From the IMG/VR virus record IMGVR_UViG_3300030333_006551, positions 1-64,000 of that record: a stretch of 64,000 nucleotides of DNA, one strand, 5' to 3'. Below, piece after piece: positions 17,384 to 46,479 of the stretch (positions within the stretch are counted from its first letter, which is position 1; every line of letters begins with the position of its first letter). This DNA comes from a virus. The position numbers and the translations under genes are program-made. The notes under the pieces were generated by a model. It made no database searches, was not told the DNA's origin, and saw only the letters and a list, made by a program, of their open reading frames with translations.

Positions 17384-19279
17384 GTGGAGCAAAAACTTTC
17401 GGATTATGTAATTAACTACCTTGGTGATCTGGGTATCGAGGATATTTTTCTTGTTTATGGAGCAGCGAATGGAGATCTTGTTGACGCATTTGTTAGGGCC
17501 GAAAAGACACGCTATGTTGCGGTAATGCATGAGCAAGGTGGTGGATTTGCTGCCGAAGGGTACGCAAAAATCTCTGGAAAGCCTGGAGTAGTTATCGTAA
17601 CAAGTGGACCAGGAGGTCAGAACCTCGTTACCTCTATGGGTAATTGCTTCTATGATTCCGTGCCTTGTGTGTTTATTACAGGTCAGATTAACTCTAAGTT
17701 CCTTCGCCCTTCCGAAGAAATCCGACAGATTGGATTCCAGGAAACAGACATGGTAGCTATTGCAGAGCCTGTCACTAAGTATGCGAAGATGATTACAGAG
17801 CCTGAAGAGATTAGATATGAGCTAGAGAAAGCTATTCACTTAGCCACTACTGGTCGCCCAGGACCCGTACATCTAGACATTCCTCTAAATATACAAAAGG
17901 CTATGGTTGATCCTGATAAGCTTATTGGGTTCAGTACACAGACTAACAACTCATATAATGAAGAAGTTATTCTTAAGCAAATAGATACCTACTTAGACGA
18001 TCTAGTCACTAGTGAGCGTCCTTGCTTGATGATAGGTAATGGGGTTCGTCTAGCAGGTGCTGAGAATGACATTCTGGACTTAGGGCGTAAGCTCAAGATT
18101 CCCGTATTTCCTACTTGGAACGCTCTCGATATTATTTGTTCTGACTACGAGTATTATGGTGGTAGAATCGGGACCTATGGTGGTGCTGGAAGAAACTTTG
18201 GAATCCAAAATACCGATTTACTATTAGCTATCGGTAGTCGGATTTCAGGGCGAATTACGGGCGGTAACATTCATAGCTTTGCTAGAGAAGCTAAGAAGTA
18301 TATGGTTGATGTAGACGAACCCGCGCTACAACCACACTTACAACAAGTGCCTTTTGATGAGTGTATTTTATCTGATGCCAAGCTGTTTATTAAACTGTTA
18401 ATGGATAGGATTGATGAGAGAAATATTACTATTCCTAATTTCGATTGGTGGGTTGATAAGGTTAAAGAGTGGAAAGTAAAGTACGACCCTGTAACTTCTG
18501 ATATGTTCGATGAGAGTGATATTGTTCACCCTTATGCTTTTATGCGTATTCTCTCAGAGGAGATGAACTCGGACGATATTCTTGCAGCAGATTGTGGGGG
18601 TAACATTGTAGTAACCAATCATGCTTTTGAAACTAAGACGGGTCAGAGGTATTTTACTAATAACGGCAACTCTCCTATGGGCTTCTCCTTTGCAGGAGCT
18701 ATGGGCGCATGGTTTGCTTCCGATAAAAAGCAAAATGTCGTTTGTGTTATTGGTGACGGTGGAATGAACATGAACATTCAGGAACTTCAAACTCTGAAAA
18801 ATTATGGAGTTAAGTTAAAGACGATTGTACTTAATAACAACATCTACGGGATCACTAAAGCTTACCAGGAAGTTAACTTTGAAGGTAGAAGCGAAGCCTG
18901 TGGGCCTAAGGGTTATAACCCTCCCGATTTTGTAAAAATTGCTAAAGCTTATGATATTGAGACTATCGAGATCAAAGAAGGTAAGTACGACAAAGTAAGA
19001 CACCAGATTAGAGAGCTTTTAGCAGCAGATGGGCCTGTTGTTTGTGATGTTAACTGCTTTGAATATCACACTTATGAGCCTAAGATTGTTGGGTGGGACA
19101 CGCCTATTGAAGATATGTATCCTTGGCTTCCAAGAGAAGAGTTCTTAGCCAACATGTATATTAAACCTTTGGAGTGTTCTGTTAATAGAGATGTATCTAA
19201 GAAACCTTCTGGATCCTCTGGTTTAGTTGAGAAGAAAGAAGAGAAGCATTCTGCTTTTGCGGAGTCGAACATTGCCTAA
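17384..19279 (+). CDS. TPP-dependent enzyme, acetolactate synthase (IlvB)-like
   Basis: A 631-residue protein with the three-domain plan of acetolactate synthase. MHEQGGGFAAEGYA contains the cofactor-activating Glu; VTSGPGGQN follows; the C-terminal TPP/Mg motif is IGDGGMNMN...NNNIYG. It starts with GTG on the base after the panB stop. The tail YEPKIVGWDTPIEDMYPWLP is not typical of biosynthetic IlvB but resembles TPP enzymes of O-antigen clusters, so a carboligase in branched-sugar synthesis is an alternative to acetolactate formation. Confidence 0.85.
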   Translation: MEQKLSDYVINYLGDLGIEDIFLVYGAANGDLVDAFVRAEKTRYVAVMHEQGGGFAAEGYAKISGKPGVVIVTSGPGGQNLVTSMGNCFYDSVPCVFITGQINSKFLRPSEEIRQIGFQETDMVAIAEPVTKYAKMITEPEEIRYELEKAIHLATTGRPGPVHLDIPLNIQKAMVDPDKLIGFSTQTNNSYNEEVILKQIDTYLDDLVTSERPCLMIGNGVRLAGAENDILDLGRKLKIPVFPTWNALDIICSDYEYYGGRIGTYGGAGRNFGIQNTDLLLAIGSRISGRITGGNIHSFAREAKKYMVDVDEPALQPHLQQVPFDECILSDAKLFIKLLMDRIDERNITIPNFDWWVDKVKEWKVKYDPVTSDMFDESDIVHPYAFMRILSEEMNSDDILAADCGGNIVVTNHAFETKTGQRYFTNNGNSPMGFSFAGAMGAWFASDKKQNVVCVIGDGGMNMNIQELQTLKNYGVKLKTIVLNNNIYGITKAYQEVNFEGRSEACGPKGYNPPDFVKIAKAYDIETIEIKEGKYDKVRHQIRELLAADGPVVCDVNCFEYHTYEPKIVGWDTPIEDMYPWLPREEFLANMYIKPLECSVNRDVSKKPSGSSGLVEKKEEKHSAFAESNIA

Positions 19280-28284: not shown

Positions 28285-28573
28285 ACTACAAAAACACGCT
28301 AAAAAGATTATTGATGACGCTACTGAGGATAGAACATTAGCCTTAGAAGCGTACCGCTATTTTAAAGAGATGGTGGATGAAAACCCACAAGATTCTGTTG
28401 CAAAATCACAGATGGTGGATTGTTTAAAACTGGCACAAACCTCAAAAGCAAATATTGTTAAAGTTATGGATTTGGTTGTTAAGATAGACTCAATGAAAGA
28501 GAAGGAACAAGGGTCAAAAACTTCCATGGCTAATGTGTTTAGTCACTTAGAAAACTTATCAAAAAATGACTGA
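28238..28573 (+). CDS. Helical hypothetical protein, possible small terminase-like
   Basis: 111 helical residues. The central part (ALEAYRYFKEMVDENP...VDCLKLAQTSKANIVK) has the heptad pattern of the coiled core of T4-type small terminase gp16. It is far from the large terminase at 59.7 kb, so this is only a possibility. Overlaps its neighbours by 47 and 8 nt. Confidence 0.4.
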   Translation: MPKEYQLKRGVLDANRLQKHAKKIIDDATEDRTLALEAYRYFKEMVDENPQDSVAKSQMVDCLKLAQTSKANIVKVMDLVVKIDSMKEKEQGSKTSMANVFSHLENLSKND

Positions 28574-29891
28574 TAGTTATAAAATTTACTGCAAAGAATT
28601 AGACGAGATTGTTTCTGTTAAGATCTTAGCCCCTGAAGAGGAGATTCTTTTATACGAGGAAACGAAACAAAAGTTCCTATCTAGCCCCAACTCCATAAAA
28701 GTTATGGATTACAAAAAATCCATAGTAGATCTGTTCATGTTAGATTTAGAGACTTTTTATATTGGGGAAGATGATTATAAGAAGGCTGGGGTGTATGAAG
28801 ACCTTATTTCCGCTCTATATACAACTATAGTGGAGGCTTATCCTCATTTCGAGTTTGAGTTCATCTGTTTCGACATTAATGCCAATTTTGCTATCAATAA
28901 CGCAAATGAGTTATTTAAAAAATATATAGGAAAAACACATATTGACCAGCGACCACAAGTGGGAAACGAAAAAACATACCCTTTATCAACTCTGTCCGAC
29001 ATTCAAAGGATAGAAAAGCACCTAATAAGCTCTGTTATTGGGCAGGAAGAGGCTATAGAAGGTATTATGAGTTCGCTTAAGTTGTTGGCTACGGGTTTGG
29101 ATACTTTTAGTTCTTACTTTTTTATCGGACCTACAGGTGTCGGCAAAACCAAATTAGCTAAAGCGTTGGGTGAGAAGTATAGTGGTAACTTTTACAAGAT
29201 TAACTGTGGGGAGTTCGCTTCTTCACATGATTACGCTAAGTTAATTGGGGCTCCTCCAGGTTATGTTGGTCATACAGAGACTAGTATTTTAGCTGAAAAA
29301 GCTGATGTATCGAACAAGTGGATCTTCCTCTTTGATGAGATAGAGAAAGCACATCCCAAATTTTATGATTTCTTATTGTCCCTTTTGGATGATGGTACTG
29401 TAACGGATAATATGGGAAAGGTGCTTGATTTTTCTAAGTCTATTTTTATCTTTACATCCAACCAAGGCTTGAATGATACTAAGATAAATAAAATGCTTGT
29501 AGGCTTTGATAAGTCGCCTGTAGACTATGAACAGAGCAAGGATCAAGTATTAGAGTCCGTTAAGAAGAATTTTAATCCAGAATTCTTAAACCGTATTGAC
29601 CATTTCATTTTCTTTAACCAATTGTCGCAAGATAACTTACGAGAAATAGCCAAAATGGAGCTTAAAGACATCCCAATTCGGAAAACTAAATCTCTTCTTG
29701 ACTATATAATTACGAATGGATATTCAAAAGAATATGGAGCGAGAAATATAAATAGATTTATTCGTAACAATGTTTCTGTTAAGGTAGCAGATGCTATTCT
29801 AGAGAAGAGGGTCCCTGAAAAGGATGGGAATCTTTATTCATCAAAGATCGTGGATAACGAACTTATTATCATAAAAACTAAGGAATTTTAA
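28566..29891 (+). CDS. ClpA/ClpB-like AAA+ protein (single D2-type module)
   Basis: 441 residues. After a 150-residue unique N-terminal region comes one AAA+ module of the ClpA/ClpB D2 type: Walker A GPTGVGKTKLAKAL (about 188-201), GAPPGYVGH pore-loop region, Walker B WIFLFDEIEKAHP (near 252-264), a sensor FIFTSNQG, and NPEFLNRID with YGARNINR (sensor 2). Full Clp proteins carry two modules and an IGL/ClpP loop; the latter is not seen here. Probably an unfoldase or remodelling factor, in the cytoplasm or for head assembly. Confidence 0.85.
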   Translation: MTDSYKIYCKELDEIVSVKILAPEEEILLYEETKQKFLSSPNSIKVMDYKKSIVDLFMLDLETFYIGEDDYKKAGVYEDLISALYTTIVEAYPHFEFEFICFDINANFAINNANELFKKYIGKTHIDQRPQVGNEKTYPLSTLSDIQRIEKHLISSVIGQEEAIEGIMSSLKLLATGLDTFSSYFFIGPTGVGKTKLAKALGEKYSGNFYKINCGEFASSHDYAKLIGAPPGYVGHTETSILAEKADVSNKWIFLFDEIEKAHPKFYDFLLSLLDDGTVTDNMGKVLDFSKSIFIFTSNQGLNDTKINKMLVGFDKSPVDYEQSKDQVLESVKKNFNPEFLNRIDHFIFFNQLSQDNLREIAKMELKDIPIRKTKSLLDYIITNGYSKEYGARNINRFIRNNVSVKVADAILEKRVPEKDGNLYSSKIVDNELIIIKTKEF

Positions 29892-41590: not shown

Positions 41591-41729
41591 ATCTCATTCT
41601 CAAATAATCTGATTTGCTCTAAACCATTGTCCCTACGGACTTTAGTTAGAACTTGCATTTACCATATATTTTATCATGCCAAGTTTAGATAATCAAGAAC
41701 AAAGTCCGATTTATTTAGAACCCGTTGTC

Positions 41730-41776
41730 GTAAGTCCTTGTCGATTCTACACTTATGGCGGGACGGGCCGCCCCGC
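41730..41776 (-). repeat. Unit-boundary hairpin repeat, copy 1
   Basis: On the minus strand: GC-rich hairpin GCGGG...CCCGC followed by TAAGTG-TAGAATCGACAAG-GACTTA. It lies 13 nt after the stop of the zinc-ribbon gene at 41789, at the 3' end of the gp88-like unit. Confidence 0.8.
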
Positions 41777-41788
41777 GAAGGGGGAAAA

Positions 41789-41986
41789 TCAAGTCTTTTC
41801 TGGGTTTTTTCTAATGGGGGAGCATTGTTCGTCACAATCGTCACACCAGTAGGAATCCAATCTTTGCAGCCAAGAGGCTTTGTCCTCAAATCCGACTTCA
41901 TCGCGAGCACCGAGGGCATTCATAGGGAGGAACATGCTCCACTCTTGGCTCACATTCTCCCCGTTACACTTTTCACATATCCACAT
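41789..41986 (-). CDS. Small zinc-ribbon protein
   Basis: 65 residues: CEKCNGENVSQEW near the N terminus and CDDCDEQC near the end. Start set at 41986 because an AGGGGG site lies just before it, right after the stop of the gp88-like gene. Confidence 0.65.
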   Translation of the reverse strand: MWICEKCNGENVSQEWSMFLPMNALGARDEVGFEDKASWLQRLDSYWCDDCDEQCSPIRKNPEKT

Positions 41987-41994
41987 GATTCCCC

Positions 41995-42636
41995 CTAGTG
42001 AGATAGGAACTTGACGGTCTTTTGAGTGGTCCAGCATAGCGCACAGTCAGCACAGCTCTTGACCTTTCCAGTTTGCTCAGGGCAAACAAAGTGCTCACCC
42101 TCAAAGGATTCATCCGCAGCGAATAGGTGGTCCGCAGCATACGCTTTGTTCCGAGAGAATCGGATCACACAACGCTCAGAGAATCGGTTGTTGATGAGCC
42201 AGATGCGCTCACCGATGATGCTATCCTCTTCTCTAGCCGTATAGCCAAAGAGAGCCAGCTTGGGATATTCAAGTAGCATCTCTTCCCAGAACTTCACATA
42301 GTCCACAGAAAAGAAATCACCTAGAACATGCAGACGGATCACGATACCGTCCTTGTGCTTTTCCATGAGCTTATCTATCTCACGATGCAGAAAGAGGTCG
42401 ATGTTCTGGATCTTATAACGGTGTGCGAATGGCATGTTATCACCGTAGCAGTCGTTCCAATGATGGCAGGACTCGGGGCAAGTTGTCCTCTCTTCTAGGG
42501 TGAGAGAATATAGACGCTTCCCTGCCCACTTACCACGGGTAATGCGGAATCCTAGCTTTTTGTTGTTTGATCCAGGCTTGAGGAGACCAGTCCTAGGGTC
42601 CCGCAAGCTCTTCTGATATCGGCTCTTAGTCTTCAT
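41995..42636 (-). CDS. GP88-family phage protein
   Basis: 213 residues. TCPESCHHWNDCYG with FAHRYKIQNIDLFL is the Cys-rich core of the phage GP88 family, which has a radical-SAM-like look but unknown activity. A second cysteine group (CPEQTGKVKSCADCALC) is at the C terminus. ATG 42645 lies inside the -10 box, so translation must start at 42636; the mRNA is predicted leaderless. Confidence 0.75.
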   Translation of the reverse strand: MKTKSRYQKSLRDPRTGLLKPGSNNKKLGFRITRGKWAGKRLYSLTLEERTTCPESCHHWNDCYGDNMPFAHRYKIQNIDLFLHREIDKLMEKHKDGIVIRLHVLGDFFSVDYVKFWEEMLLEYPKLALFGYTAREEDSIIGERIWLINNRFSERCVIRFSRNKAYAADHLFAADESFEGEHFVCPEQTGKVKSCADCALCWTTQKTVKFLSH

Positions 42637-42643
42637 GGCGTAC

Positions 42644-42672
42644 ATTATATCAGGTCATCAGGGGTATTGCAA
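42644..42672 (-). promoter_or_regulatory. Sigma70 promoter, leaderless layout
   Basis: Minus strand: TTGCAA (42672-42667), 17 bp, TGATATAAT (-10 at 42649-42644), 7 bases to ATG 42636. Confidence 0.85.
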
Positions 42673-42697
42673 CACAAAACAGGAAAAACTTTTCGCC

Positions 42698-42760
42698 GTA
42701 AGTGCTTGTGGATTCTACACTTACACGCGAACGCGCCGCCGCGCAAATGCGATTTGCAAG
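42698..42760 (-). repeat. Unit-boundary hairpin repeat, copy 2
   Basis: Minus strand: GCAAATCGCATTTGC hairpin, a GCGCGGCGGCGCG block, then GTAAGTG-TAGAATCCACAAG-CACTTAC, a perfect 7-bp stem. It starts 7 nt after the 3' CCA of the tmRNA-like RNA and lies upstream of the gp88-like promoter. Confidence 0.82.
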
Positions 42761-42767
42761 GATAAAA

Positions 42768-42848
42768 TGGTGGAGGTGCAGGGAATCGAACCCTGGTCCG
42801 AACGAGTGCCGTGTAGGCTCTAGCCCGTCGAAACTCCTTTACACCCCC
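42768..42848 (-). ncRNA. tmRNA tRNA-like-domain RNA without tag region
   Basis: 81 nt. Acceptor stem GGGGGTG/CACCTCC with a G3-U70 wobble, discriminator A and encoded CCA: the alanyl-tRNA synthetase identity set. No D-stem; instead GTTTCGACGGG, the conserved 5' motif of tmRNA. Before the T-arm (CAGGG-TTCGATT-CCCTG) stands TTCGGAC, the conserved 3' tmRNA motif. The P2 helix (GGGCTAGAGCC/GGCACTCGTTC, two mismatches) is closed by a 5-nt loop TACAC where a normal tmRNA has about 300 nt with pseudoknots and tag frame. Confidence 0.8.
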
Positions 42849-42904
42849 AAGGTAGGGTGGGCTAGATGTCGCCACCTAGCCAACTGGCCCGAGTTCAGAA
42901 CTCT

Positions 42905-43195
42905 TGCACCATCACCCCGAAGGGCGGGAGGCCACACTCAGCGGAGTGTTTCCGTTTACCATCTCTTTATAGGTGTGGCCTCCCTGCCTGTTCCCGAAGG
43001 CTACTCGCTTTCTTTTACTTCGTCCCTGATCAAAGGGCGAAGGTGGGGAGGGGGCTAGGCATAAAGTTTGCGATCACCCCTCTCCGAAGGTGGGGAAGGG
43101 GATAGGCTTCTATGGTTTGCATCACCCCTCCCCGAAGGTGGGGAGAGGTAGCAAGACGGTAAACCGCACTTTTACATGCTACCCCTCCCCGATCA
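42905..43195 (-). repeat. Non-coding region with tandem hairpin units
   Basis: The 348-nt gap between the gene at 43197 and the tmRNA-like RNA has no gene. It holds repeated hairpins seen on the plus strand as ATCACCCCTCTCCGAAGG-TGGGGAAGGGG (43073), ATCACCCCTCCCCGAAGG-TGGGGAGAGG (43122), and weaker copies near 42908 and 43030. Also GAGGCCACAC...GTGTGGCCTC (42929-42983). All would be in the transcript that leads to the tmRNA-like RNA. Confidence 0.7.
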
Positions 43196-43196
43196 C

Positions 43197-43418
43197 TCAG
43201 CTAACCCCTTGGGTAGCCTTGTGGGCAGCCGTAGCTCCCTGATGCCTACCTGTCCACTCATCGGTGGGAAGAAGGCGACGAAGAGACTTGTAAGCCTCAA
43301 GCGCATGGTCAGACTCGTAAGAGCCCTGCTTCCAGAGGTCAGCGAACAGTTCGCCAACTTGAACGGAAAGACCTTGAATTTTGGCCTCCGTGGTGTTGTA
43401 CTCAAAAGATGAGCGCAT
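43197..43418 (-). CDS. Small hypothetical protein
   Basis: 73 residues from ATG 43418 behind AGAGGA. Helical (IQGLSVQVGELFADLWKQG), Thr/Ala/His-rich end. The mRNA has a leader of about 65 nt with a CACAG...CTGTG hairpin, unlike most units here. Confidence 0.6.
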   Translation of the reverse strand: MRSSFEYNTTEAKIQGLSVQVGELFADLWKQGSYESDHALEAYKSLRRLLPTDEWTGRHQGATAAHKATQGVS

Positions 43419-43871: not shown

Positions 43872-43896
43872 GAGAAATTTTGAGAAACTTTTTGGC

Positions 43897-43950
43897 CTAA
43901 GTCCTTGTCGATTCTACACTTACGGAGGTTGCCGCCGTCGCCCAATCGGC
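43897..43950 (-). repeat. Unit-boundary hairpin repeat, copy 3
   Basis: Minus strand: GGGCGACGGCGGCAACC block then GTAAGTG-TAGAATCGACAAG-GACTTAG. It lies 27 nt after the end of the 27-residue membrane peptide gene, before the next promoter. Confidence 0.8.
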
Positions 43951-43976
43951 CAATAGAGGCCAACTGAGGGGGGTTA

Positions 43977-45099: not shown

Positions 45100-45611
45100 A
45101 CATGTATAAGGGGCAAAACTCGGCAAACCGAAGGTGATTTCTCTGATTTCTTTTGGGTAATCCTAAGGTTTTTTTCGACCTAAGTGCTTGTCGATTCTAC
45201 ACTTACAGCGGGAGCTGCCGCCCCGCAAAATGCGGCTGTCAACAAAAAAACCCCTCGTTCGCAACCTTTTCTTTCCATGGATAAGTGCGTAGAAAAGAAG
45301 CGGGGCGAACCAGGGGCGAGAGGAAAAGGGAGAGAGAGGGACAGGGCTTAATGTATTACCTGCAAGGCTCCATGTTACTGGTTCTGATCACCTACGACAA
45401 ACGGCTATTGCCTTGACCATACCTCACGGATTTCCGCATCGGGTTCTGGCCTGTCTGCACTAGAGAGCAACAAAACTCTTATTATGCGACCCGCATCAGG
45501 ATGCCTCCCGATGCCTCTCCGAATTTCCAACCCCCTGAGAAGGATATCACTCCTCAGAGGCGCTCTGGGCCTAATGTCTATTTATACTCGCCCAGACGAG
45601 TGCCTAGCGTC
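45100..45611. other. 512-nt region without a gene
   Basis: No reading frame with support on either strand. It holds repeat copy 4 (45180-45240). On the minus strand it also has a T4-late-type TATAAATA (45585-45578) inside the loop of a CTGGGC/GCCCAG hairpin, and a CTGAG...CTCAG hairpin (about 45534-45556). It could be the 3' trailer of the 45830 unit or an RNA gene. Confidence 0.5.
45180..45240 (-). repeat. Unit-boundary hairpin repeat, copy 4
   Basis: Minus strand: CCGCATTTTGCGG hairpin, GCGGGGCGGCAGCTCCCGC hairpin, then GTAAGTG-TAGAATCGACAAG-CACTTAG. It lies in the long gap between the units starting at 45830 and 45099. Confidence 0.82.
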
Positions 45612-46321: not shown

Positions 46322-46346
46322 GACCTAATCCAAAGAAATATCGGTC

Positions 46347-46410
46347 CTAACCCCTTGTGGATTCTACACTTACGGCCAGCCGCGCCGCCCACCCAAATGC
46401 GACATGCAAG
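46347..46410 (-). repeat. Unit-boundary hairpin repeat, copy 5
   Basis: Minus strand: GCATGTCGCATTT, a GGGCGGCGCGGCTGGCC block, then GTAAGTG-TAGAATCCACAAG-GGGTTAG. Loop fully conserved, right arm diverged. 70 nt after the gene ending at 46480. Confidence 0.78.
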
Positions 46411-46479
46411 AAAAAAAGGGGAGAGGATTGATGAAAGGTAGAGCCAGTAGCCTAACCTGAGGCCCCCTCCCCCCGAATG

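Follow-up and report, generated by a model that had tools for sequence, protein, structure and literature searches.

Based on covariance model searches and comparison with related loci, an 81-nt RNA gene on the minus strand of a phage genome (positions 42768-42848, encoded CCA included) is identified by its sequence as a TLD-only tmRNA, a homologue of transfer-messenger RNA (tmRNA) that consists of the tRNA-like domain (TLD) without the message part. The stretch of DNA analyzed, hereafter the window, comprises positions 1 to 64,000 of IMG/VR record IMGVR_UViG_3300030333_006551, the whole of which has 129,906 bases. A sequence-only reading, made without database searches, had described the locus as the tRNA-like domain of a tmRNA lacking the tag region, and had proposed the Rfam tmRNA models as a check. 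When the window was searched with cmscan against all Rfam families, the tmRNA family RF00023 matched from end to end (model positions 1-374) with 308 positions deleted, scoring 63.6 bits against a curated cut-off of 47 bits (E-value 1.7e-22, or 2.9e-24 when 1.1 kb was searched instead of the window), and our own covariance model, R1, gave 52.4 bits (E-value 3e-9). The description is thus borne out, and the 308-position model gap falls between the two strands of helix P2.

Anatomy of the RNA

The order of elements on the minus strand is GGGGGTG TAAAGGAG TTTCGAC GGGCTAGAGCC TACAC GGCACTCGTTC GGAC CAGGG TTCGATT CCCTG CACCTCC A CCA. The acceptor stem (P1) is formed by GGGGGTG (42842-42848) and CACCTCC (42772-42778), within which G3 (42846) is paired with the U70 equivalent (42774) as the alanine identity pair, and is followed by the discriminator A (42771) and CCA (42768-42770). 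The D-stem is replaced by GTTTCGACGGG; the D-loop analogue TAAAGGAGTTTCGA (42828-42841) carries the GG and TTCGAC that are a tmRNA hallmark, and TTCGGAC stands immediately 5' of a normal T-arm, CAGGG-TTCGATT-CCCTG (42779-42795). All features of a TLD are therefore present, namely the 7-bp acceptor, GG/TTCGAC without a D-stem, the T-arm and A73-CCA. The place of the pseudoknots and the tag frame is occupied by a short closed P2 hairpin with the loop TACAC (42799-42827). The coordinates and anatomy given by the sequence-only reading were correct in all essentials, including the acceptor, the missing D-stem, TTCGGAC, the T-arm and CCA. Its P2, an imperfect helix of 11 bp closed by TACAC, stands as an imperfect helix with that loop, and the count is revised to 12 stacked positions (42827-42816 with 42810-42799), of which 10 are standard pairs and two are U.C and A.A mismatches.

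The message domain (resume codon, tag frame and stop) and the pseudoknots are absent from the RNA, in which the 308 model positions are missing and P2 is closed by the 5-nt loop. The sequence-only reading had raised three possible objections to itself, two of which concern the locus directly. A tag domain encoded as a separate piece was not found nearby, P1 and P2 being closed in cis by the 5-nt loop, and no second tmRNA was found in the entire 129,906-base record, which gives one tmRNA match only. A better score as an ordinary tRNA was not obtained either, since no tRNA model reaches its cut-off at the locus; there is no RF00005 match, ARAGORN is silent, and neither a D-stem nor an anticodon arm is present. 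A permuted two-piece tmRNA was also rejected, as RF04321 scores just 20.6 bits, under its cut-off of 47, through the T-arm and acceptor alone and the gene order is unpermuted. A coding sequence was rejected because any given frame is open in just 57-63 of 115 relatives. The pairing of a leader with the acceptor 5' strand (CCACCC...GGGGGTG), conspicuous in the window lineage, is not a feature of the family (8 of 152 loci, versus 3.9% in shuffles).

Conservation and covariation among viral loci

The lowest free-energy fold of the window RNA alone differs from the TLD fold and its stability is mild (z -1.7), so the evidence for its structure is comparative. Four patterns composed of the tmRNA blocks TTCGAC, GGAC and the T-arm, with a short gap between, were scanned in IMG/VR, and the resulting locus and sequence counts are lower bounds. 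These patterns made no demand on the acceptor stem, the 3-70 pair or P2, whereas TTCGAC was demanded and its conservation therefore proves nothing. The locus set, consisting of the IMG/VR matches, the window and a few loci from bacterial genomes and cultured phages, contains at least 153 loci and at least 115 distinct TLD-only RNAs with G3-U70. With the RNA masked, the loci separate into at least 54 groups that share no DNA similarity extending over 200 nt or more with one another; among the matches listed, most of the 54 DNA groups are loosely connected by protein links, giving 19 components. The acceptor stem together with G3-U70 was found, again among the matches listed, in 147 of the 153 viral pattern loci versus 4 of the 89 such matches when 84,980 genomes of bacteria and archaea were scanned. 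The four exceptions are two Acidimicrobiales bins, a Prochlorococcus single-cell contig that is the phage of locus L006, and a locus sharing the RNA of viral contig L043.

Excluding the last four letters, nearly all of the matches listed are 60-81 nt long, with a main mode at 76-79 nt and a minor one at 60-65 nt. When the insert separating the conserved blocks was set to 36-66 nt the pattern had no match, and when it was set to 5-35 nt it had 13. The short P2 region therefore defines a genuine size class, as opposed to the lower end of the full tmRNAs. In 33 of the 34 TLD-bearing phage records, an element of 66-85 nt scores above the Rfam cut-off and no second full-length tmRNA was found.

Among the matches listed, the first four inner positions of P2 are paired in 110-114 of 115 sequences, with nearly every standard pair type represented. 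In 30 diverged P2s, 6.03 of 7 pairs form, compared with 2.99 +/- 0.24 after the 5' and 3' strands were swapped between sequences (maximum 3.83 of 7 in 2000 trials). In a model-fitted alignment of 95 matches, which includes two weak matches and one tRNA and is biased toward structure, the P2 covariation score is 0.701, versus 0.137 when shuffled and at most 0.10 when the strands were slid; the strand-swap test is free of that bias. P1 and the T-stem are paired in 100% of cells of this alignment, and the 3-70 position is G-U in 94 of the 95 aligned relatives, in agreement with the earlier assignment of G3-U70 as an alanine identity element. Because MAFFT misaligned P1 on the unequal D-loops, the analysis relied on a gap-free subset and on a structure model. 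Furthermore, among the matches listed, 115 of 119 extracted sequences retain G3-U70, and GG stands 5' of TTCGAC in 113 of 115 relatives.

The nearest relative is L006, with a ClpA-like protein 97% identical to that of the window phage; it sits in a Prochlorococcus single-cell assembly (L203), where co-sorting is possible. Between the two RNAs, P1 and the T-arm are identical, and in P2 three pairs have undergone double compensatory change (A-U to G-C, G-C to A-U and G-C to U-A), counted by eye from the pairwise alignment, in addition to one change at a mismatch and changes in the loop. The third objection, missing conservation of P1, P2 and the T-arm in relatives, is contradicted by this strong conservation and by the covariation of P2. 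Taken together, the TLD-only tmRNA is, judging from these alignments, a common phage RNA whose structure selection has preserved in many phages.

In many temperate phages, attP consists of the final 30-45 nt of a tRNA or tmRNA gene, an example being the 3' match beside an integrase in Mycobacterium phage Validus. That the window RNA is a leftover of this kind, from integration into a host ssrA gene, or a decaying tmRNA, is highly improbable and already contradicted, because attP requires the 3' part only, whereas P1 and P2 are kept here with both their strands and a short closing loop, and compensatory change in P2 is strong, including the three double changes relative to L006. The attP of an ssrA-integrating phage was likewise rejected on the presence of both strands of P1 and P2 and on the GP88-like identity of the downstream gene; as regards an integrase, this rejection covers the half of the genome within the window.

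Cultured phages

Complete and unannotated TLD-only RNAs are present in the tRNA regions of six cultured Streptomyces phages, LuckySocke, GiJojo, Alone3, pSt2308, BRock and Shaeky, and the function of the RNA is therefore directly testable in a laboratory host. The RNA of Alone3 was detected by the R1 model only, below the Rfam cut-off, and in GiJojo an annotated hypothetical protein overlies the RNA. The remaining cultured-phage matches are full-length or permuted tmRNAs, or short matches at the 3' end, attP among them. Since ARAGORN, which is common in phage annotation, overlooked the window RNA, phage genomes merit rescanning. By its terminase, the window phage has no close cultured relative (best about 35% identity), and psbA was not found in the window phage.

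Genomic context

The downstream neighbour of the window RNA is a GP88-like gene (PF17338, phrog_2554; 216 aa; 41995-42645, minus strand). Among ten loci retrieved through the GP88 protein, five carry a nearby TLD-only RNA with letters outside the search patterns, and these RNAs keep the D-loop block with few changes. In the lineage of the window phage, the GP88-like gene and the TLD-only RNA tend to occur together. A tRNA lies on the same strand within 100 nt in 19 of the 153 loci among the matches listed, versus 2.6% of random positions, and the spacing is 0-10 nt in L019, L026, L039, L069 and L108. This proximity suggests that the TLD-only RNA may be co-transcribed with tRNAs and processed like a tRNA.

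The window RNA itself is solitary, in an untranslated and strongly structured stretch (42764-43200, z -5.3). Directly upstream of it on the minus strand is a GC-rich hairpin array of the GGGGAGGGG type (42850-43200, z -5.3), in which a hairpin near 42925-42985 has a loop of about 34 nt that is almost identical in L006, an exact-pattern search of IMG/VR giving no other occurrence. A 72-nt repeat with a conserved core TAAGTCCTTGTCGATTCTACACTTA and a GC-rich flank occurs five times (41729-41800, 42697-42768, 43896-43967, 45179-45250 and 46346-46417) at a spacing of about 1.0-1.3 kb, mostly upstream of minus-strand genes, and one copy adjoins the CCA end of the TLD-only RNA. A Pistol self-cleaving ribozyme (RF02679, 69.6 bits) lies on the same strand 2.7 kb upstream of the RNA (45526-45601), and a same-strand Pistol is also found about 0.7-2.3 kb from the TLD-only RNA in L006, L264, L266 and L270.

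Elsewhere in the window, a ClpA/ClpB-type AAA+ protein (28566-29891, plus strand) consists of the second ATPase domain only, with a new N-terminus, and homologues of 42-97% identity occur in five other phages with TLD-only RNAs (G001, G005, G013, G033 and G034). That this protein is connected with how ssrA-tagged proteins are handled is purely speculative. An acetolactate-synthase-like thiamine pyrophosphate (TPP) enzyme of 631 aa (17384-19279, plus strand) scores under the equivalog cut-off.

Possible function in ribosome rescue

The TLD-only RNA is probably an alanylated decoy that would capture host SmpB and bring trans-translation to a dead end. The sequence-only reading had also placed a decoy against host trans-translation first, and this ranking is kept because a DS6A-like molecule is a strong inhibitor of tmRNA whether or not it can be charged, perhaps through titration of SmpB (Mao 2009, as summarized in PMC4131195 and PMC11915505). 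A possible sequence of events is as follows. The RNA may be transcribed and cut out in the manner of a tRNA, and host alanyl-tRNA synthetase (AlaRS) may charge it with alanine through G3-U70. Host SmpB and EF-Tu could then bind the alanylated RNA and deliver it to ribosomes stalled without a codon, where it and host tmRNA would compete for SmpB and the stalled ribosomes. Lacking a resume codon, it would be unable to tag or to complete rescue, and host trans-translation would be damped by the phage during infection; phage proteins might thereby escape tagging, or a host stress or defence response might be disarmed.

In tmRNA, the ability to accept alanine comes from the third G.U pair, EF-Tu carries alanyl-tmRNA and SmpB into stalled ribosomes with the message domain needed only later, and a tmRNA truncated so as to lack the ring of pseudoknots has been crystallized with SmpB and EF-Tu on the stalled ribosome (PMC8363625). 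The phage RNA appears to keep the parts for the first steps of rescue without the part for the later ones. No SmpB was found encoded in the 34 TLD-bearing phage records, in a search that found SmpB in 10 of 14 control genomes, and host SmpB would therefore be used.

Several observations weigh against the decoy. Lambda immP22 infects 10,000-fold less without host ribosome rescue (PMC2862035); some phages thus need host rescue, and a phage that blocks it is no obvious winner. In Streptomyces phage Riptide (PV654398.1), a degenerate TLD-only copy near 83298-83377 accompanies a full tmRNA elsewhere in the genome (94862-95130, 269 nt, 92.9 bits). The discriminator A is replaced by U in L264 (4282-4364), L268 (2791-2873) and L270 (4297-4379), whose RNAs also have TATCGAC where others have TTTCGAC; these changes may alter alanylation and SmpB binding, and the U may weaken charging. 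Finally, the inhibition in the precedent is, as summarized in the same two sources, independent of charging, so that pure titration of SmpB leaves the strong retention of G3-U70 unexplained.

This last point is the main reason for retaining a second explanation, rather unlikely overall and also among those offered by the sequence-only reading, in which the RNA works instead of blocking: the alanylated TLD with host SmpB would accept the stalled nascent chain and add at least one alanine without a message, and the chain would be freed by another factor or leave as peptidyl-TLD. Such untemplated addition is consistent with G3-U70 in 115 of the 119 extracted and 94 of the 95 aligned sequences, with the synthesis of polyalanine in vitro by SmpB and a TLD fragment without mRNA (PMC3929946), and with the persistence of tag-less mitochondrial tmRNA alongside SmpB, suggesting a useful tag-free role (PMC11915505). 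On the other hand, the title of a reference in PMC2862035 makes ribosome release dependent on minimal translation of the tag region, and the discriminator U of the three relatives also speaks against it. The stronger form of this explanation, that a widespread class of alanine-charged phage RNAs borne by host SmpB substitutes for host tagging, either marking C-termini with alanine without a template or providing a release of its own, is unlikely.

A role independent of SmpB, such as titration of AlaRS or EF-Tu or service as a processing point in the phage transcript, would need only the acceptor, T-arm and G3-U70 for binding AlaRS or EF-Tu, and the RNA is often located in tRNA arrays. However, the D-loop analogue of GG and TTCGAC, which contacts SmpB in ribosome structures (PMC8363625), is kept (GG in 113 of 115), and the sequences retrieved through GP88 keep the D-loop block as well, TTCGAC itself having been demanded by the search; this role is quite unlikely. 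Since the TLD-only RNA is common, evolves fast and yet is constrained in structure, phages appear to target, or borrow, ribosome rescue as a general strategy.

Comparison with known systems

The sequence-only reading knew of no described natural RNA of this type, which does not hold, since DS6A, the mitochondria of jakobids and oomycetes and two plastid genes precede it in PMC4131195 and PMC11915505. Mycobacterium phage DS6A (Mao et al. 2009, RNA Biol 6:355, via the same two sources) likewise has a phage tmRNA with little beyond the TLD, and is the sole phage case given there. The window RNA, with only a TLD and a short P2 in a phage genome, is likened to it by description and not by sequence; the window phage is a T4-like myovirus whose RNA has a P2 of 12 positions, and DS6A is a Mycobacterium phage. 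The 2025 tmRNA database holds 79 phage tmRNAs, with DS6A as its only TLD-only phage form (PMC11915505), and no report of such breadth of TLD-only phage tmRNAs was found in a literature search.

The tmRNAs of jakobid and oomycete mitochondria (RF02544) and the two plastid tmRNAs are also homologues without a tag frame (PMC11915505). In contrast to the mitochondrial genes, which are usually permuted and accompanied by nuclear-encoded SmpB, the phage gene is unpermuted, in one piece and in a genome without SmpB. The full-length tmRNAs of Streptomyces phage Riptide, Mycobacterium phage Bxz1 and Methylophilales phage Melnitz contain the same TLD, often in tRNA clusters, but have the message domain that the window RNA lacks and can tag. 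The TLD fragments engineered for SmpB co-crystals and polyalanine synthesis (PMC3929946) share the acceptor, D-loop analogue and T-arm and have no message domain; these are laboratory-made, whereas the window RNA is much the same truncation in natural form, and natural minimal TLDs could be useful for SmpB research. The kind of RNA was therefore already known from DS6A, mitochondria and two plastid genes, and what is new is its breadth among phages, its covariation, its kept alanine identity and its cultured examples.
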